64,000 nucleotides of DNA. Origin: Elusimicrobia bacterium HGW-Elusimicrobia-3 (GTDB lineage: Bacteria > Elusimicrobiota > Elusimicrobia > Elusimicrobiales > UBA9959). The notes beneath the pieces are model-generated. The model had not been told where the DNA came from, did no database searches, and worked only from the letters and a program-made list of their open reading frames with translations. Made by a program: the position numbers and the translations under genes. The stretch spans positions 1-64,000 of the forward strand of contig PHAL01000012.1 in assembly GCA_002840355.1 (NCBI GenBank), read 5' to 3'. This document shows, piece after piece, positions 2 to 12,278 of the stretch; the stretch's first letter is position 1, and every line of letters begins with the position of its first letter.

Positions 2-679
2 AGCGACGGTTCAGGCAAGGTCGCCATCAGCGCGGTGACCAACACTGAACTGGGCTACCTGTCCGGTGTGACCTCCGCGCTGCAGACGCAGCTGGACGCC
101 AAGGCCGCGTTGGGAGGCGCTACGTTCACAGGCGCGGTGAACCTGACGGATGTGGCGTTGAACGTGACTGGAGCTAACGGTAATATCGTCAGCGCTTCTT
201 CCATAACGACTAGCGGCGGTATGTTCGCGGGAGAGATGACTGTAACTAACGCGGTTACCGCCGCCAGCGGTACCTTTACCGCCGTGGGCGACGCTCAGTA
301 CAGCGTGGAGACCAGCTCCGGTATAAAAATGAATGCCGGCATTCTCTCCGTGACCGGGCTCTCCGCATTCCCTAATAACGGAGTGGCCTCCGTGAATGAT
401 GCCTCTGCACTGGCTGTGGATCGTACTTTCATGAAACTGGTTGGAAACAATGCCGGAGCAACAGCGACACTGACCAGTATAATTGCCGGGGTCGCCGGGC
501 AAATGGTGATACTTGAAGGTACGAGCGATACCGACTCCATAACTATACCTGCCGGTATCAATGTTAAACTTGCCGGCGCCATCCCCCCGGAGGCTGCGGT
601 GCTCGGCGCAAGCGACACCATAATGCTGATATTCGACGGTTCCAACTGGGTGGAGGTCAGCCGGTCCGACAACGGCTAA
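2..679 (+). CDS. C-terminal part of a repetitive surface/tail-fibre-like protein (5' end outside window)
   Basis: Open reading frame runs from the window edge; VTNTELGYLSGVTSALQTQLDAK motif typical of fibre/adhesin-like proteins; stop at 679. Confidence 0.6.
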   Translation, partial: SDGSGKVAISAVTNTELGYLSGVTSALQTQLDAKAALGGATFTGAVNLTDVALNVTGANGNIVSASSITTSGGMFAGEMTVTNAVTAASGTFTAVGDAQYSVETSSGIKMNAGILSVTGLSAFPNNGVASVNDASALAVDRTFMKLVGNNAGATATLTSIIAGVAGQMVILEGTSDTDSITIPAGINVKLAGAIPPEAAVLGASDTIMLIFDGSNWVEVSRSDNG

Positions 680-2966: not shown

Positions 2967-4412
2967 ATGAAACAGTTAAAAGTTAAAATTATAACTGTGG
3001 CAAAAGGTTTATCTATTTTACTGTTAGCCATTGCCGCCGCTACTATGAACGCGAACGCAACATTCTCTGCCGATTCCTGCGGGGCCAGGGCCACCGCGAT
3101 GGCCGGCGCATTTACCGCGGTGCCCGGCGGCTCCGAGGCCGCCTGCGCCAATCCTGCCACGCTGGTGGAGCTCGCCTCGCCCGAGGTGACCGCCGCCTAC
3201 GGCCGCCTGTATTCCGGCCTCAGCGACGACTCTTCCATCGGCCAGGGCTATTTCGGTTTCGCCGCGCCCGTCAAACGCCACCTGCCGGGCAGCGCCGCCT
3301 TCTCCTGGAGCGACACCCGCCTCAGCGAGGCCTACTCCGAGAGCTACTACGCCGTCAGCTACGCCACCTCGGTGTACCGCGGCATAGGCGCCGGCGTGAC
3401 GCTGAAGTACATGCGCCGCGGCTACACCTCCGATTCCTACACCGCCCTGGACCCCGTGTTCTCCGGCGGCTACTCCAAGAGCGCGCTGGGCGCCGACCTG
3501 GGCTTCTTCTACCGGCCCCGCCCCGCCTACGCGCTGGGCCTGGCCCTGCGCAACATCAACAAGCCCGACCTGGGCCTGGACGCCGCCGACCCGCTGCCGG
3601 TGGAAGTGCGCGCCGGCGCCTCTTACCAGGTCCGCTCCAGCCTGATAGATATCGACGCGGCTTTCTCCGGCCCCGACTACACCATCTCCGCCGGCGCTGA
3701 ACATATTTTCCAGCGCCGCTACGCGCTGCGCATGGGCCTGGCCTCCGGCAACGACTCCCGCCGCAGCGTCAATCTCGGCGTGGGCGGGCGCTTCGGCCTG
3801 GCCTCCTTCGATTATTCCTTCAGCCTGCCCATCAGCGGCATCGCCGGCACCGTGGGCTCGCACCGCCTGGCTTTCTCTTTCCGCTTCGGCGCCGACGCCG
3901 TCGCGGCCGAGGAGCTGGCCGCCGCCGCCGACCTCAGGCGCGCCCAAGACAAGGCCGCCTTGCAGGAGGAGAAGATCCGCGTGCTGCAGGAGCGCCTCGA
4001 CGCCGTCACCCGCGCCGCCGCGGCCGTGCCGCAGCCCGCCCCTGCCCCCGCCGCCGCGCCGGTACAGCCCGCACAGCAGCCGGTGGTCATCACACAGCCC
4101 GCGCCGGCCGACGCCCAGGTACAGGCGGAGATAACCCGCCAGATAGAGGCCCTCAAGATCGAACTGCAGAAGTCCCGCGCCGAGATGGAGTCCCTCAGGG
4201 CCAGGCCCTCGGCCGCGAAAACCGCGCCGCAGGCCAGGCCCGCGCCGGCCCGCCGCACTTCCTATACTGTTAAGGAAGGCGACACGCTGGGCAGCATAGC
4301 CGAGCAGGTGTACGGCGACGCGGGCCGCTGGATGGAGATCTACCGCGCCAACGCCGGCTCGCTGGGCCGCGGCGGCGAAGTGAAGCCCGGCCAGGTGCTG
4401 GCGCTGCCGTAG
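2967..4412 (+). CDS. PorV/PorQ-like outer membrane beta-barrel protein with C-terminal LysM domain
   Basis: GARATAMAGAFTAVPGGSEAACANPATL motif of PorV/UPF0164 barrels; Pro/Ala linker; LysM-like YTVKEGDTLGSIAEQVYGDAGRWMEIYRAN. Confidence 0.75.
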   Translation: MKQLKVKIITVAKGLSILLLAIAAATMNANATFSADSCGARATAMAGAFTAVPGGSEAACANPATLVELASPEVTAAYGRLYSGLSDDSSIGQGYFGFAAPVKRHLPGSAAFSWSDTRLSEAYSESYYAVSYATSVYRGIGAGVTLKYMRRGYTSDSYTALDPVFSGGYSKSALGADLGFFYRPRPAYALGLALRNINKPDLGLDAADPLPVEVRAGASYQVRSSLIDIDAAFSGPDYTISAGAEHIFQRRYALRMGLASGNDSRRSVNLGVGGRFGLASFDYSFSLPISGIAGTVGSHRLAFSFRFGADAVAAEELAAAADLRRAQDKAALQEEKIRVLQERLDAVTRAAAAVPQPAPAPAAAPVQPAQQPVVITQPAPADAQVQAEITRQIEALKIELQKSRAEMESLRARPSAAKTAPQARPAPARRTSYTVKEGDTLGSIAEQVYGDAGRWMEIYRANAGSLGRGGEVKPGQVLALP

Positions 4413-4442: not shown

Positions 4443-7400
4443 ATGAAAGAGAACTTTGACGAATCATCGCTGAACGAACAGGCCATCAACGACGTTGAGA
4501 CGGCCCGCCTGGCCCTGCGCTGGGCGCTGGACAAGATCCGCGGCCTCCACGAGGACGACCTGAAGACCCGCCAGAACCTGCAGGAGAAATCCAGCCAGGT
4601 GGCTTTCCTCGAGAACCAGCTCAAGACCAAGAACGCGGAGATAGAGCGCGCGGGCCGCACGCACGAGGAGGAGATGAAGTCCAGGCAGGACTCGATGGAG
4701 TACCAGTTCCGCTCCCGCCTGGAGCGCCTCACCGACCGCGAGAAGGAGCTCGAGGACAAGATCTCCAAGAGCGAGGAGATCTTCAAGCAGAAAGAGTCCC
4801 GGCTGGAAACCGATTACCAGAAGAAGGCCGAAGAGCTGCGCGCCCGCTGGGCCAGCGTGGAAGGCGAGCTGTGGCAGCTGCGCCAGGAGCAGCTGGCCAA
4901 GCAGCAGGAGTTCGAGCGCGTCTACGGCGCCCGCCTGGAAGAAGAGAAGAAAAAATTCGCCGAAGAGGCCGCCATACAGCGCTCCTCGCTGGAAGAGACT
5001 TACAGCAACCGCGTGGAGGAACTGCAGAAGCGCGAGCGCCAGGTCAGCGACGAGCTCAAAAAGCAGGAGGCCGTGCTGAAATGGGCCAAGGACAGCTGGC
5101 AGAAGGACGCCGAGGACCGCGAGCGCGTCCTCAAGCAGAAAGACCTGGAGATCGACAAGAAGATCCTGGAGAAGAACCAGGAGATCGACGATTACCGGGT
5201 CAAGGTCCAGCTGCTCGAGAAGCAGCTTAAGGAATTTCCCGAAGCCGTCAAGCGCCGCGATGACGACCTGTCCCGCTACAAGGACGCCATCGGCAGCCTA
5301 GAGAGCGTCATCCGCACGCTCGAGACAGAGAAGAAGAACCTGCAGGCCGACTACGAGGGCCGCCTGGCCAAGGCCACCGACGCCGCGGAGACCGAGCGCA
5401 ACCGCTTCCGCGAGATGGAGTCCGAGATCCCCAAGCGCCTCAAGATCGCCGTGGAGCACGAGCGCAACCGCTTCGCCGAGAAGCTGCAGGACCTGGAGCA
5501 CGGCTACCGCGAGGACGTCTCCAAGAAGCAGGACGAGATCGAGTACCTGCAGCGCAACCTGCGCACTTTCGAGGAGACCATCAAGACGCTGCAGGCCGAG
5601 CGCGAGGCTTTCGCCCACAAGGTGGAGCAGCTGCAGACGCAGTACAATGTCCGCCAGGAGGAGGTCTCCTTCCGCGAGAAGCAGCTGCAGTCGGAATACG
5701 ACGTGCGCCTGAAGGTGGAGATGGAGAAGCACACCGCCTCGCTGCGCTCCGAGCTCGAGACCGCCGGCCGCATCTACGAGGACAGCCTGCGCCTGAAGGT
5801 GGAGGAGATCTCCCACCTGCGCCGCGACATAGACGACCTTTCCAAGGATAAGAACGCCGCCAAGGACCAGCTGGCCGAAGCCCGCCGGCAGGCCGAGGCG
5901 CTCTCGCAGCGCGCTACCGCCGAACAGGACGCCCTGCGCGCCCGCCTGTCGGCCGAGTTCGACCGCAAACTGGGCGAGGAGGCCGTCGCCGCCGAGCAGC
6001 GCCGCGCCGCGGACAAGCAGAAGGCCGCCGCCGAGCTGGAAGCCAGGAGCGCCGAGTTCAAGGCCGAAGTCGCCCGCAAGGAGGACGACCTCAACACCCT
6101 GCGCCTGGCCGTGCAGAAGGCGGGGGAAGACCTGCGCATGGCCCGCCAGGTGGCCGGCGAGGAATTGAAGGCCGCCGTGGCCGCGGAAAAAACCCGCGCC
6201 GCCGCCGAGCTGGAGGACAGGCTGTCGCGCCTGAATACCACGGTAAAGCTGCGCGAGGACAAGATCAACGAGCTCTCCGGCGCCCTCGAGGCCGCCCGCA
6301 TAGAGCGCGAGGAACTGGTGCTGATGGAGCGCGAGCGCCTGCAGCGCGTCTACGCCGAGAAGGAAAAGGCGATGGACGAGGAGCTGGCCGCCCGCGACGC
6401 CGAACTGCTGCGCGCCCGCGACGCCGCCGTCCGCGCCGCGGCCGACAAGGACGCCGCCGTGGCCGCCGCGGCCGCCGAGAGGCGCGGCCTGGAAGAGAAG
6501 ATCGCCGCGCTCAACCTCCGCATCTCCGAAGACGAGTCTTCCGCCGGGGTCAAGCTGGACGCCGCGCTGAGGCGCGAGGCCGAGCGCTACGGCGAGATCA
6601 TCGAGCGCAAGAACAAGGAGCTGGACGCCGCCGCGCACCTGCGCCAGTCCGAAGAGGACGCCTACCGCAAGTCCCTGGCGGACTTCCGCTCCAGCCTGTC
6701 CGAAGCGCTGGGCAAGATGGAGACGCTAAAGGGGCTGGCCGACGAACGCCAGGCCCAGGTGCTGGCCCTGCAGGTCGAGCTGTCGCAGGAGAAGAAACAG
6801 GCTGGCGACCAAACCTCTTCTCTCTCCAGCCGCCTCTCCGACAAGGAAAAACTTTACCGCGACCTCATGCTGCAGCACGAAGACCTCAAGGAGACCTTCG
6901 AGGAAGAGGTCAAGGTGGGCGAGCGCCGCTACAACGACGCGCTGCTGAAACTGCGCGCCGCCGAGGAACAGCGGGCCGGCCGCGACAAGCAGATAGAGGC
7001 GCTCAAGCGCGACCTCGAGCTGCTGCGCGCCGATAACCTGCGCCGCGATCACGAGGCCTCCGAGCTGAAGTCCTCCGTGTCCAAGCAGGTGGAGAGCGAG
7101 CGCCGCGAGATGCACGCCTCCGGCGAGCGCCGCGCGCACGAGTACGCCCAGAAGGAAAAGGCCCTGCTGGCCGAGATCTCCTCGCTGCGCGACATGGTCA
7201 ACGCCAAGGACATACAATTGGAGAAGCAGAAGGTGCAGTCCGACGAGGCCCGCAGCAGCGCCGAGCGCCTGCGCGGCGTGCTCGAGGAAGAGCGCGTCCG
7301 CTACGTGGAGAACGAGGCCGCGCTGCGCGCGGTCAAGGACGATTACGACTCGCGCCTGGCCGCGATGGCCGAGCGCGAGAAGGCACTGTCCGCGGAGCTG

Positions 7401-8093
7401 ATCTCGCTGAAGCGGTCCCTGTCCGCCAGCGCCGGCGACGCCCTGGAGAGCCGCGGCGAGGCCGAGAACCTGCGCTCCGGCCTGGAGCGCCTGAAGGCCG
7501 CTTTCGAGGAAGAGAAGAAGAAGCGCGCGGAGGCCGAGGCCGCCGCGCTGACCGCCGGCACGGCCCTGCGCGAGAAGTCCGCCGACGCGGAAGCCCGCCG
7601 GGCCGACGTGGAGGCGCTCAAGAACGGCATCGAGCGCCTGAAGGCCGCCTTCACGGACGAGCGCAAGAAGCGTTCCGACGCCGAGCTGATGGCCGAGAGC
7701 GCCACGATGGCGCTGCGCGAGAAGGGAGACCAGCTCTCCTCGCAGAAAGCCGACCTGGACGGGACGCGCAACGCCGCCGACCGCCTGAAGGCCGCGCTGG
7801 AAGAGGAGAAGCGCAGGCGCGCCGAAGCCGAAGCCGCGGCCGAAGCCGCGCGCCACGCCCTCGCCGCCAAATCCGACGAGTCCGGCAGCCGCCGCTCCGA
7901 GATAGAGGCCCTGCGCCACGCCATAGAACGCCTCAAGAGCGCTTTCGAGGACGAACGCTCCAAGCGCGTGGAGAGCGAGCTGCTGGCCCAGACGGCCCAC
8001 TCCGCCCTGCGCGAGAAGCAGGAGGAGTTCCTGCGCACCCAGAAGCTCGTAGAACAGCTCAAGGACAAGCTCCGCTTATGGAAGAGCAAGTAA
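4443..8093 (+). CDS. Giant coiled-coil protein (1216 aa)
   Basis: Nearly entire length is charged heptad-like sequence; no TM or signal peptide seen; four 49-aa tandem repeats near the C-terminus. Confidence 0.85.
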   Translation: MKENFDESSLNEQAINDVETARLALRWALDKIRGLHEDDLKTRQNLQEKSSQVAFLENQLKTKNAEIERAGRTHEEEMKSRQDSMEYQFRSRLERLTDREKELEDKISKSEEIFKQKESRLETDYQKKAEELRARWASVEGELWQLRQEQLAKQQEFERVYGARLEEEKKKFAEEAAIQRSSLEETYSNRVEELQKRERQVSDELKKQEAVLKWAKDSWQKDAEDRERVLKQKDLEIDKKILEKNQEIDDYRVKVQLLEKQLKEFPEAVKRRDDDLSRYKDAIGSLESVIRTLETEKKNLQADYEGRLAKATDAAETERNRFREMESEIPKRLKIAVEHERNRFAEKLQDLEHGYREDVSKKQDEIEYLQRNLRTFEETIKTLQAEREAFAHKVEQLQTQYNVRQEEVSFREKQLQSEYDVRLKVEMEKHTASLRSELETAGRIYEDSLRLKVEEISHLRRDIDDLSKDKNAAKDQLAEARRQAEALSQRATAEQDALRARLSAEFDRKLGEEAVAAEQRRAADKQKAAAELEARSAEFKAEVARKEDDLNTLRLAVQKAGEDLRMARQVAGEELKAAVAAEKTRAAAELEDRLSRLNTTVKLREDKINELSGALEAARIEREELVLMERERLQRVYAEKEKAMDEELAARDAELLRARDAAVRAAADKDAAVAAAAAERRGLEEKIAALNLRISEDESSAGVKLDAALRREAERYGEIIERKNKELDAAAHLRQSEEDAYRKSLADFRSSLSEALGKMETLKGLADERQAQVLALQVELSQEKKQAGDQTSSLSSRLSDKEKLYRDLMLQHEDLKETFEEEVKVGERRYNDALLKLRAAEEQRAGRDKQIEALKRDLELLRADNLRRDHEASELKSSVSKQVESERREMHASGERRAHEYAQKEKALLAEISSLRDMVNAKDIQLEKQKVQSDEARSSAERLRGVLEEERVRYVENEAALRAVKDDYDSRLAAMAEREKALSAELISLKRSLSASAGDALESRGEAENLRSGLERLKAAFEEEKKKRAEAEAAALTAGTALREKSADAEARRADVEALKNGIERLKAAFTDERKKRSDAELMAESATMALREKGDQLSSQKADLDGTRNAADRLKAALEEEKRRRAEAEAAAEAARHALAAKSDESGSRRSEIEALRHAIERLKSAFEDERSKRVESELLAQTAHSALREKQEEFLRTQKLVEQLKDKLRLWKSK
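7479..8066 (+). repeat. Four tandem 147-bp coding repeats (49 aa, seven heptads each)
   Basis: GLERLKAAFEEEKKKRAEAEAA../GIERLKAAFTDERKKRSDAEL../AADRLKAALEEEKRRRAEAEAA../AIERLKSAFEDERSKRVESEL.., each exactly 49 residues. Confidence 0.8.
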
Positions 8094-11044
8094 GCAGCCA
8101 CATCAGCGACCTCGAAGGGCTCAATACCGAGCTCGAGGGCTTCCTCTCCGACCTGCACGGCCGGGAGGAATCCCTGTCCGCCCGCGTCAAGGGCCTGGAG
8201 GAGGAACTCTCCGCCGCGCGCAACTCCGCCGCCTCGCGGCTGGAGCTGTACGCCCAGAAGGAAGCTTCCATCTCGGCGGCCCTCGAAGAGCTGCGCGGCG
8301 CGCTCACGCGCGAAAGTTCCAAGACCATTTCCCTGACTTCGGAGCGCGACGAGCTGCAGCGCAAGCTGGACGCGTCGTTCGCCGCCGCCGCGGAAAAGTA
8401 CGCCGCCCTGCTCTCGGACCGCGACGCCCTGCTGCAGCGCCTGGAGGGCGCGGAGCGCCTGCACGAGGTGGAAAAGGCCCGCGGCGCCGAGAAGGAGCAG
8501 CTGATCGCTTCCGGCCGCGCCGCGCTCAAGGCCAGGGAAGAGGAAGCCGAGCGCCTGCTGCGCTCGATAGACGATCTGAAGGCCGACCTGGCGCTGGAGC
8601 GGGCCAACGTGAAGGACCGCGAGGCGCAGCTGCAGAAGTCCGCCCGCCTGCGCGAGGCCGTGGAGAAGAAGCTGGACCTGGCCGCGCAGGAGAACGCGCG
8701 CTCCGAGGAAGGCTTCCTGCTCAAGATCGAGCTGGTCAAGAAAGAGATGCGCGACCAGGGCAGGCGCGCCGACGACCTGGAGCGCAAGCTCTCGGCCGCC
8801 GGGGCCAGACTCGAGGACGCGCTGTCCGAGACGGCCAAGGGGGAAAAGACCCTGGCCGAAACCGCCGCCGCGCTGGCCGAGAAAGAAGCCCAGCTGCGCG
8901 ACGCCAACCACAAGCTCAAGGAGCTTACCAGGGAATTCGCCGAGATCAAGAGCGGCGCCCTGCACGAGAACGCCGCCCGGGCCCGCGAGGCCGCGGCCGC
9001 GATGGCCGCCCGCGTGGAGGAGCTGGAAAATTCGCTGGAGGAGAACGCCCTCCGCCATACGGAGAAATTCCGGGCGGTGCAGGCGGAGCTGGTGGCCGTA
9101 AGGGCCGACCTGCGCGCCCGGGAAGAGGAGAACTCCTCCCTGCGCTCGCGCGAAGAAACGATTTCCAAGGAGCTCGGCGACGCCGAGGAGAAGTGGAAGT
9201 TCTCCACCGCCCAGCTCAATAACGCCGCCTCCAGGCTGCGCAACGCCGAGAACGAGCTGGAAATAATCCAGGGGCGCCTCAGTTCCGTGGAGGAGGAGCG
9301 CGACAAGTTCCGCGCCGCCGCCATCAAGGCCGAGACCGCCTCCTCCGCCATGGCCGCCAGGGAAGCCAAGGCCCGCGACGGCGAGGCCGCCGGGCTGGTG
9401 GCCGCGCTCGAAGAGCAGTCCGCCAAGTACACCGACCTGCTGCGCAGGTACGACGACCTGGTGCTGCAGCGGGAGGCTTCCTCCCACGAAAAGGCCGGCC
9501 TGCGGGCCGAGTCCGACTCGCTGCGCGCCGCGCTGAAAGCGGCCCAGGACGCGCTGGACGCCGGGACCGGCGAAAAGCTGGGGGAACATTCCAGCTACGT
9601 CGAAAAGGTGCGCGCGCTGGAACTCGGGCTGAAGAAAAAGGATTTCGAGCTGCAGGAGGCCCTCTCCGCCGCGGCCTCCGCCGCCCGCGAGACCGAGGAG
9701 CTGCGCGCCGAGCTGGAAGAGAAGGAATACTCCGCGGCCGGCGCCGCCGAGGCCGAGAAGGCGCGCTATGCCGTGCTCTCCGAGAAGATGCACAACGCGG
9801 AAAGCCTGCTCAAGAAGAAAGAATTCGAACTGGACGAGGCCCGGGCCGCGCTCTCGGGCCTGGAGGACGAGTGCCTGCTGCTGCGCCGCAGCCGCGCCGA
9901 CCTGGGCGAGAAATTCTCCCGCGAGATACAGGCGGAGAACGAGCTGCTCAAGGAGTCGCAGACCCGCATTGTGGAGCGCGAGGCCCTCATTTCCCGCCTC
10001 TCCCTTACCGAAGAGGCGCTCAAGAAGGAGACCGAGGCCCTCAGGAAGGAAAAACAGCAGCTGCTGGCCCAGGTACGCAAGAAGGCCTCGGGCAAAGGGC
10101 AGTCCAAGGTTACCGAGGCCGAGCGGATGCTCGCCGAAAAAGAGAGCGGCCTGGAGCACCTGCGCGCCGAACTCGAGCGCACCCGCGCCGAGAAGGCCGA
10201 GCTGCAGGGCAGGGAGAAGGGCTTGCGCGAGGAGCTCAGGGCCAAACCCTACCGGGCGATGCTGCGCGAGGCCGAGGAGAAACTCCTTATCAAGGAGAAG
10301 ATGCTGGCCGACATGAATTCGCGCATGAAGAAGATCGGCAAGGATTTCGAAGAGCTCAAGACGCGAGGCCAGAGCGCCGGCGCCCCCGGCTACATGCCGG
10401 ATTTCGAGGAGCTGGTCGCCGGCGTGGCGCACCAGATAGCCAATTCCATCAGCATCATCCGCAGCCACGCGGAGTTCTGCGCGGAGGCCCCCGACGCCGA
10501 CGGCGCCCGGGAATCCCTGGACGTGATCGTGCGCAACATCGTCAACCTGCAGAAGAAGATAGACATCATCATGAGCTTCTCGCGGCCCGTCATCCCGCAG
10601 CGCTCACCGGAGCGCCTTCGCGCGGTAGTGGAGGAGGTCCTCGACGGCCTGCGCGCGGCCGGCAAACTGGAGAGGATCAACGTGCAGCTGAAGGGCGGCG
10701 AAAAGACCAGGCCGCTGAGCATGGACCGGGTGCGCTTCGCTTCCGCGGCCGAGCAGCTGCTGCTCAACGCGGCCGAGGCCATGCCCGACGGCGGAGAGAT
10801 CTCCGTCTCCATCTCCGGGGCCGGCGGCAGGCAACGCCTGGAAGTCTCCGATACCGGGCCCGGCATAGAGAAAAAGAACCTGGGCCCCGCTTTCCACCCG
10901 TTCTTCACCACCAAGCCGGGCAAAATGGGGCTTGGCCTTACGCTGGCGCGCAACGTGGCCAGGGCTCACGGCGGCTCGCTGGAGCTGCATTGCGAGCCGG
11001 GCAGAGGCGTCCGCGCGGTCCTGGACCTGCCCGAAGTTTCTTGA
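8078..11044 (+). CDS. Coiled-coil histidine kinase (about 770 aa coiled coil plus HisKA/HATPase_c)
   Basis: C-terminal H box VAGVAHQIANSISIIRSH, N box LLLNAAEAM, G1 DTGPGIE, F/G2 FFTTKPGKMGLGLTLA; no TM segment; overlaps upstream CDS by 16 nt. Confidence 0.85.
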   Translation: MEEQVSSHISDLEGLNTELEGFLSDLHGREESLSARVKGLEEELSAARNSAASRLELYAQKEASISAALEELRGALTRESSKTISLTSERDELQRKLDASFAAAAEKYAALLSDRDALLQRLEGAERLHEVEKARGAEKEQLIASGRAALKAREEEAERLLRSIDDLKADLALERANVKDREAQLQKSARLREAVEKKLDLAAQENARSEEGFLLKIELVKKEMRDQGRRADDLERKLSAAGARLEDALSETAKGEKTLAETAAALAEKEAQLRDANHKLKELTREFAEIKSGALHENAARAREAAAAMAARVEELENSLEENALRHTEKFRAVQAELVAVRADLRAREEENSSLRSREETISKELGDAEEKWKFSTAQLNNAASRLRNAENELEIIQGRLSSVEEERDKFRAAAIKAETASSAMAAREAKARDGEAAGLVAALEEQSAKYTDLLRRYDDLVLQREASSHEKAGLRAESDSLRAALKAAQDALDAGTGEKLGEHSSYVEKVRALELGLKKKDFELQEALSAAASAARETEELRAELEEKEYSAAGAAEAEKARYAVLSEKMHNAESLLKKKEFELDEARAALSGLEDECLLLRRSRADLGEKFSREIQAENELLKESQTRIVEREALISRLSLTEEALKKETEALRKEKQQLLAQVRKKASGKGQSKVTEAERMLAEKESGLEHLRAELERTRAEKAELQGREKGLREELRAKPYRAMLREAEEKLLIKEKMLADMNSRMKKIGKDFEELKTRGQSAGAPGYMPDFEELVAGVAHQIANSISIIRSHAEFCAEAPDADGARESLDVIVRNIVNLQKKIDIIMSFSRPVIPQRSPERLRAVVEEVLDGLRAAGKLERINVQLKGGEKTRPLSMDRVRFASAAEQLLLNAAEAMPDGGEISVSISGAGGRQRLEVSDTGPGIEKKNLGPAFHPFFTTKPGKMGLGLTLARNVARAHGGSLELHCEPGRGVRAVLDLPEVS

Positions 11045-11054
11045 TAGGGGAACT

Positions 11055-12278
11055 ATGTCACGAATCCTTATTGTCGACGACGAACCTGACATGCGCCTGG
11101 CGGTGCGCAACGTCCTGAAGCTGCGCGGCTACGAGATCGCCGAGGCGGGCGACGGCCCGGCGGCGCTGGCTATCGCCAGGGAGAGCAGGCCCGACCTGGT
11201 GCTGCTTGACATGCGCCTGCCCGGCATGGACGGCATAGAGGTGCTGGAAGGCTTGAAGAAGATCGACGATTCGATGCCGGTGGTGATGATAACCGGCTAC
11301 GGGCATATACAGTCCGCGGTGGACGTGATGAAACTGGGCGCCAGCGAATATCTGCAGAAACCTTTCGAGAACGCGCAGCTGGTGGAGACCGTGAAGCGTT
11401 TCGTGCAGGGCCCTGTCAGGCGCCCCGCCCCGAAGCCGCAACCGCGGCCCGAGCCCGCGGCCGTCCCTCTGCCCGGGCCCGAACCCAGGCCCGCGGCCGC
11501 CCCGGCCCCGGCCCCTGCCCTTGTATTGCCCGCCGCGAAAAAGAGCCTGTTCTTCCCGCTGGCCGCCGCGCTGGCCGTGCTGGTCGCCGCTTTCGGCGTC
11601 TACCGCCTGACCGCCGGCAGCCTGAACGATTATTACCGCGAATATCCCGGCGTTCCCGCCAATATTTCCTCGCTGGTCTGGTCGGGCGGCAAGCTGTTCG
11701 CCGGCGACTGGCTGGCGCAGTCCGTGTACCTTTACTCGGCCGACAAGGACGGCCTGCGGCAAGAGCAGGCTTTCCCGCTGGACAAGACACATATCAGCGG
11801 CCTGGCCGCCACCGGAGACGTGCTTTATGTGGCCGATTCCTGGCGCAAGGTCATAGAGGCGCGCCGCATCGCCCCGGGCCTGCCGCTCCTCGCCACCTTC
11901 GCCGCCCCGGGCAAGGTCAGCGCCCTGTTCTACGACGGGGAGTATCTCTGGACCTGCGACAGCTCCGGCAACGCCGTGCTGCGCCGCCCCGACTCCGAGC
12001 TGACTCCGGCGGTCTCCTTCAGGCTGCCAGAGAAGCCCGACCAGATCTTCAAGGACAAGGACTACCTGTGGACGGCCGTTTCCTCCACCGGCAAGATCTA
12101 CCGCCACAAGCTCGACGACAGCCTCTCGCTGGATGCGGTCTTCACGCTGAAGACGGCCAGGCCCGGCTATCCCTTATCCGCCTTCGCCTGGCGCGAGGGC
12201 CGGTTCTGGTTCGCCCGCGACGGGCTGGGCGTGGTGTTCGAGACCGGCAAAGGCGAACTGGTAAAGCAGCCGGAATAG
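11055..12278 (+). CDS. Receiver domain - Pro-rich linker - TM helix - beta-propeller-like protein
   Basis: ILIVDDEPDMRLAVRNVL, DLVLLDMRLPGMDG, VMITGYG, YLQKPF (complete receiver); hydrophobic SLFFPLAAALAVLVAAFGVYRL; WD/NHL-like repeats after it. Confidence 0.8.
   Translation: MSRILIVDDEPDMRLAVRNVLKLRGYEIAEAGDGPAALAIARESRPDLVLLDMRLPGMDGIEVLEGLKKIDDSMPVVMITGYGHIQSAVDVMKLGASEYLQKPFENAQLVETVKRFVQGPVRRPAPKPQPRPEPAAVPLPGPEPRPAAAPAPAPALVLPAAKKSLFFPLAAALAVLVAAFGVYRLTAGSLNDYYREYPGVPANISSLVWSGGKLFAGDWLAQSVYLYSADKDGLRQEQAFPLDKTHISGLAATGDVLYVADSWRKVIEARRIAPGLPLLATFAAPGKVSALFYDGEYLWTCDSSGNAVLRRPDSELTPAVSFRLPEKPDQIFKDKDYLWTAVSSTGKIYRHKLDDSLSLDAVFTLKTARPGYPLSAFAWREGRFWFARDGLGVVFETGKGELVKQPE

Follow-up and report, generated by a model that had tools for sequence, protein, structure and literature searches.

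The window, a stretch of 64 kb, carries on its forward strand three consecutive open reading frames (ORFs), at the positions given in the initial annotation. The first codes for a 1216-aa coiled-coil protein (CC; 4443 to 8093), the second for a soluble 988-aa histidine kinase (HK; 8078 to 11044) with ~770 aa of coil ahead of HisKA and HATPase domains, and the third for a 407-aa response regulator (RR; 11055 to 12278) organized as a receiver, a Pro-rich linker, a TM helix, and a predicted five-bladed propeller. CC and HK overlap by 16 bp (8078 to 8093, forward strand), a length that is the same in all loci with both ends assigned and that suggests translational coupling; HK and RR are separated by a gap of 10 bp. 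The gene run extends past these three genes, and the two directly upstream belong to it too, coding for a secreted 718-aa surface protein (P2; 736 to 2892) and a PorV-type outer-membrane barrel with coils and a LysM domain (PorV-LysM; 2967 to 4412), with P2, PorV-LysM, and CC all on one strand with gaps of 30 to 74 bp. On the 3' side of RR are a pilin gene on the reverse strand, an ftsQ-like gene, ftsA, ftsZ, and pilT, just as previously described. HK, PorV, REC, and propeller profiles each have a single match in the window, all within the operon.

The coils of CC and HK, recognized in the initial annotation, are beyond chance because their heptad contrast exceeds that of both shuffled sequences and controls. 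Values for CC and for HK residues 1 to 770 are 0.49 to 0.50, compared with 0.29 to 0.30 in shuffles, and 45 to 47% of sequence windows in these coils are above the shuffled 95% level, compared with 5 to 9% in control proteins; there are two prolines among the 1216 residues of CC and two among the 770 of the HK coil. CC is best conserved in residues 1 to 450 (~65 to 80% identity per block), with length variation mostly C-terminal, and it has an N-terminal tag, AINDVETARLALRWALDKIRGL (4482 to 4547, forward strand). The lengths of CC and HK have a correlation of 0.59 across 20 loci in which several HK starts are misassigned, and this is not used as evidence. Matches of CC to SMC, intermediate-filament, and similar HMMs are far under their cut-offs and are regarded as generic coil matches.

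The catalytic part of HK is composed of HisKA (10409 to 10585, with His785; 25.4 bits, slightly below the cut-off of 26.9) and HATPase (10724 to 11035; HATPase_c, 71 bits, cut-off 26.4) domains, and its H, N, G1, and G2 boxes are all intact. The H-box reads HQ[IV][AS]N in 15 of 18 aligned HK sequences, including that of the window, and HQVGK at locus L022. Phosphorylation does not appear to be kept everywhere, because individual lineages have another residue in place of the phosphoacceptor His (L023 and L161, and L013, with Asn) and the kinase at L165 lacks a HisKA match. HK and RR had been proposed to belong together, and they do form a conserved pair, which also occurs as a detached two-gene unit away from CC (G116 and G234). 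Genus g12 has a 230-aa HK that lacks the coil, retains an intact H-box, and adjoins a REC-TM-propeller gene away from CC, which shows HK-RR to be the core pair. The nearest named sequence relatives are AtoS/ZraS-type histidine kinases for the HK catalytic part and NtrX/AtoC-type receivers for that of RR; NtrX/AtoC-type regulators have DNA-binding outputs, and AtoS/ZraS-type kinases have other sensor parts.

The RR receiver (11055 to 11408; Response_reg, 115 bits) contains the Asp pocket together with Asp52, Thr80, and Lys102, and receivers in the family are nearly invariant in sequence. It is followed by the Pro-rich linker (11409 to 11549), the TM helix (11553 to 11627), and the propeller (11634 to 12266), and this layout, part of the initial description, is reproduced by an AlphaFold prediction on 33 relatives (mean pLDDT 88) with a disordered Pro linker at residues 121 to 160, a TM helix at 167 to 191, and an all-beta domain at 194 to 404 with pLDDT above 90. 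The output domain is confidently predicted to be a five-bladed propeller, and AlphaFold and Foldseek agree that it is a fold of its own, as had been suspected. Foldseek matches it best to glutaminyl cyclases from bacteria and plants (TM-score 0.69 to 0.75 by target length, 16 to 18% identity), and Pfam offers no convincing family, with a weak Glu_cyclase_2 match in 1 of 21 propellers (E 0.09). The propeller is probably periplasmic; counting against this placement, the positive-inside rule favours a cytoplasmic receiver in only 52 of 75 sequences.

P2 has a signal peptide-like start, fn3 and FlgD_ig domains, and a C-terminal domain (CTD) of type-B-like character (~2623 to 2850) as in the type IX secretion system (T9SS), which matches CHU_C (29.5 bits, cut-off 27) and scores 22.5 bits against TIGR04131, under the cut-off of 35. 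PorV-LysM is a predicted FadL/PorV-type barrel (~3183 to 3884) with periplasmic coils after it and a LysM domain at the C-terminus (4263 to 4409); LysM and TraF_2 matches are above cut-off, and PorV_fam scores 57 bits, below its cut-off of 90. In the AlphaFold model (mean pLDDT 73), the barrel has 14 strands and is joined by two coils and LysM, and the best Foldseek match of the barrel is 8gl6_F, a T9SS translocon complex chain, with FadL-family channels close behind. The linkage of these two genes strengthens the surface-signalling role first suggested for the locus. Farther upstream is the 3' end of a gene for a fibre-like surface protein (2 to 679, forward strand; Phage_depo_C, 33 bits, above cut-off), which is open at its 5' end at the contig start and whose membership in the run is uncertain. 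Full-length versions are present in relatives (L118:8655-11837, and also L119), and that of L118 matches the Bdellovibrio mosaic adhesive trimer N-terminus (Bdello_MAT_N), under its cut-off. In relatives (L117:2044-4590, L118, and L119), the fibre gene is preceded by a separate pair of genes, for an HK and for a sigma-54-type response regulator, which could regulate the operon.

A pattern-based scan of genome contigs, the one scan on which distribution outside Elusimicrobiota is based, identifies 31 relatives that are complete or nearly so, from Elusimicrobia MAGs as well as other bacterial MAGs; those of full length come solely from Elusimicrobia or from other MAGs with the same gene order. 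All of the genomes are MAGs, and contig ends hide some neighbours, but relatives with enough sequence keep the order P2-PorV-CC-HK-RR-pilin-ftsQ-ftsA, some with an extra HK/regulator pair or a second pilin ahead of ftsQ; the neighbourhood comparison called for in the initial annotation thus finds CC, HK, and RR to be a conserved unit. Several lineages have nrdJ-CC-pilin-ftsQA (nrdJ named by eye from its sequence) without P2, PorV, HK, and RR, with CC alone retained where HK and RR are lost, and a P2 orthologue is absent genome-wide in lineages lacking the cassette. G121 has CC, a His-less HK, and a receiver-TM protein without a propeller, and P2 and PorV are absent from its locus. On an FtsA tree, the presence of the propeller and of P2 plus PorV agrees at all 27 scored loci, with five to six changes, an agreement of modest statistical weight because there are only two independent contrasts on well-supported branches. 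Divergence among HK, REC, and propeller is also correlated (r 0.86 to 0.95), but this reflects shared ancestry and is therefore not used as proof. The adjacent pilin and ftsQAZ genes had been read as a clue to function, and this did not survive comparison, as the arrangement is confined to the window's own family: FtsA, FtsQ, and this pilin are nearby in none of ~60 related loci from other families, and a cell-division or pilus module as the defining feature is rejected because of their absence.

The proposal that CC is a scaffold needs revision, in that CC is not simply independent and is the N-terminal part of a kinase in other families. In six genomes of families f7 and f8, CC and the kinase are a single ORF of 2092 to 2860 aa, with the CC tag at the start, HisKA-HATPase at the end, and a REC-TM-propeller gene next, and CC of the window therefore corresponds to part of the kinase. 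Tag scores in four of the fusions are 19 to 24 bits, compared with at most 11.2 in 600 shuffles, and at the f7/f8 loci a small LysM protein adjoins instead of the PorV barrel. A further fusion, of CC and HATPase, is present in G282 (the HisKA-less L165), and the tag also starts coil-TM-propeller proteins at L242, L266, and L267. The CC tag profile has matches in 90 of 290 genomes, often in ~3 proteins per genome. Locus L284:5827-11929 (G000:C89) includes a 1054-aa CC paralogue with the same N-terminal tag that overlaps a 981-aa ORF without a Pfam match, an arrangement repeated in G018.

The propeller is widespread in Elusimicrobiota, with profile matches in 110 of 290 genomes, spread over 56 of 89 genera, and with none among the gut-family (f2) genomes listed. 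Forty loci were hand-picked from these matches, so the fractions obtained from them are descriptive. HK immediately precedes 17 of the 20 sampled genes with an intact receiver (same strand, within 190 bp), and D9, D52, T/S80, and K102 are kept in all 20. Degenerate-receiver genes have no HK directly upstream (0 of 7 sampled) and have PorV-LysM there in 7 of 7, one of which is reduced by a contig end to a LysM fragment. Other TM-propeller proteins have TPR-like repeats or a coil (assigned by eye) as the cytoplasmic part. The order P2-like, PorV-LysM, HK, (REC or TPR)-TM-propeller is present at 11 sampled loci in seven other families (f4, f5, f16, f17, f21, f23, and f26). At L252:4015-6534, tandem REC-TM-propeller duplicates face a convergent run of HK, PorV-LysM, and P2-like genes.

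An open-access full-text literature search returned no description of this gene set. The set has the HK catalytic boxes, receiver residues, and HK-RR pairing of a two-component system and shares parts with several known systems. In Bacteroidota, PorE, with a propeller and peptidoglycan binding, binds PorP, which in turn binds a type-B CTD protein, and porE-like genes adjoin porP-like genes in Flavobacterium johnsoniae (PMC9143113). The likeness extends to a barrel of the FadL/PorV/PorP kind, a protein with a type-B-like CTD, a propeller, and a peptidoglycan-binding domain. However, PorE combines the propeller and an OmpA-type peptidoglycan domain in one lipoprotein, whereas here the barrel carries the peptidoglycan-binding domain (LysM), the inner-membrane-tethered RR carries the propeller, and a histidine kinase belongs to the set. 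PorX/PorY is likewise a two-component system tied to T9SS-type export, in which the phosphorylated PorX receiver binds the membrane-bound secretion-motor protein GldL (PMC10951265), but PorX is a receiver-helical bundle-PglZ protein, and RR has a TM helix and propeller with no PglZ match. With the parts distributed otherwise than in PorE-PorP or PorX, the locus is filed under neither. AglZ, FrzS, and RomR of Myxococcus xanthus, which control surface motility, combine receivers with coils of great length or with a Pro-rich linker (PMC4546325, PMC12719032). They are described without a TM helix or propeller and outside any gene set with HK and PorV, and RR does not follow their plan of a receiver on a coil, or on a Pro-rich linker with a Glu-rich tail, and no TM helix; AglZ and FrzS receivers are without a functional phosphorylation site.

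As to export, a 1776-aa SprA-like ORF (G000:C31, locus L199:5867-11197, forward strand) has three in-order SprA matches (77, 49, and 23 bits; cut-off 200) and is a possible T9SS-type translocon in Elusimicrobiota. A complete Bacteroidota-type T9SS is not supported, with the SprA-like ORF under cut-off and no GldM_1st match for the GldM motor in the genome; the Peptidase_C25 (PorU) profile has no match anywhere, controls included, and is therefore uninformative. The PorV family is unusually expanded in G000 (2.9 Mb), with 27 matches, at least 17 of them above the curated cut-off.

These features suggest a signalling system whose target is the cell surface and not DNA, and we somewhat favour an Elusimicrobiota two-component system that acts across the cell envelope, through the propeller, on PorV-LysM and P2. 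CC and HK, a coupled pair here and one protein elsewhere, would assemble as an elongated cytoplasmic scaffold, and the coil kinase would phosphorylate the adjacent RR receiver, which would be tied to the periplasmic five-bladed propeller by a flexible linker rich in Pro and a single TM helix. The phosphorylated receiver, with no DNA binding, would change how the propeller is assembled or placed, and the propeller may then act on the PorV-type outer-membrane barrel, with LysM holding the barrel to peptidoglycan, and so influence how P2, the surface protein with the type-B CTD, is secreted or anchored. Phosphotransfer, propeller-barrel contact, and the direction of signalling are what we infer, with a possible role in adhesion or surface motility.

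Signalling could instead run from the outside in, with the propeller reading PorV-LysM or its cargo and passing the signal via the TM helix to the receiver, serving as a docking site, and on to the coil kinase, with the output elsewhere. This is unlikely. In its favour, it involves identical gene linkage, extracytoplasmic propellers often serve in sensing, and degenerate receivers or TPR-like domains can replace the receiver while TM-propeller and PorV-LysM stay. Against it, intact receivers retain all of the checked catalytic residues and are paired with kinases, and the conserved order holds no further regulator gene. A structural polarity or gliding scaffold similar to AglZ, FrzS, and RomR, associated with a pole or track and only tuned by phosphorylation, is improbable: the great length of the coils, with strong conservation over the N-terminal 450 aa, the retention of CC alone after loss of HK and RR, and the adjoining pilin, pilT, and ftsZ in the window's family are consistent with it, but the pilin and fts neighbours are missing outside that family, the conserved order includes no MglA-type partner, and other families carry CC within the kinase itself. 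It is highly improbable that the propeller is a receiver-regulated enzyme of glutaminyl-cyclase type acting on exported proteins, as the top Foldseek matches might imply; type I glutaminyl cyclases have the five-bladed fold in common with it and no family-level sequence match, so the likeness is in fold only, and the domain also occurs on coil and TPR-like proteins. Unrelated genes can share operons, but that coil, kinase, receiver, and barrel are merely co-operonic, with no joint function, is scarcely credible given an order common to many families, natural fusions, and joint loss.

The favoured two-component system may, more tentatively, represent a phylum-wide inside-out class in which an extracytoplasmic propeller output directly controls a PorV-type outer-membrane barrel and the display of its surface protein, and in some lineages a giant coil scaffold would incorporate the kinase. 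Response regulators known so far mostly work inside the cytoplasm, with DNA as the usual target, and an RR acting through the membrane on the outer envelope would be an unusual form of bacterial surface control and a recognisable trait of Elusimicrobiota, a little-studied phylum with few cultured members. The CC-HK fusions, the kinase-less versions with degenerate receivers, and the lineages that have lost parts provide testable predictions as to which parts are partners.

Two further modules contain related components. The second is composed of an N-acetylmuramoyl-L-alanine amidase, PorV-LysM, and a degenerate-receiver-TM-propeller protein (L115:845-5230, L112, L113, L114, L162, L210, and L211), and its PorV-propeller pair also occurs in other families. 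The third (L111:3151-9951 and L116) codes for a PorV-family protein, a 579-aa coil-TM-propeller protein, and FlgD_ig-rich surface proteins.
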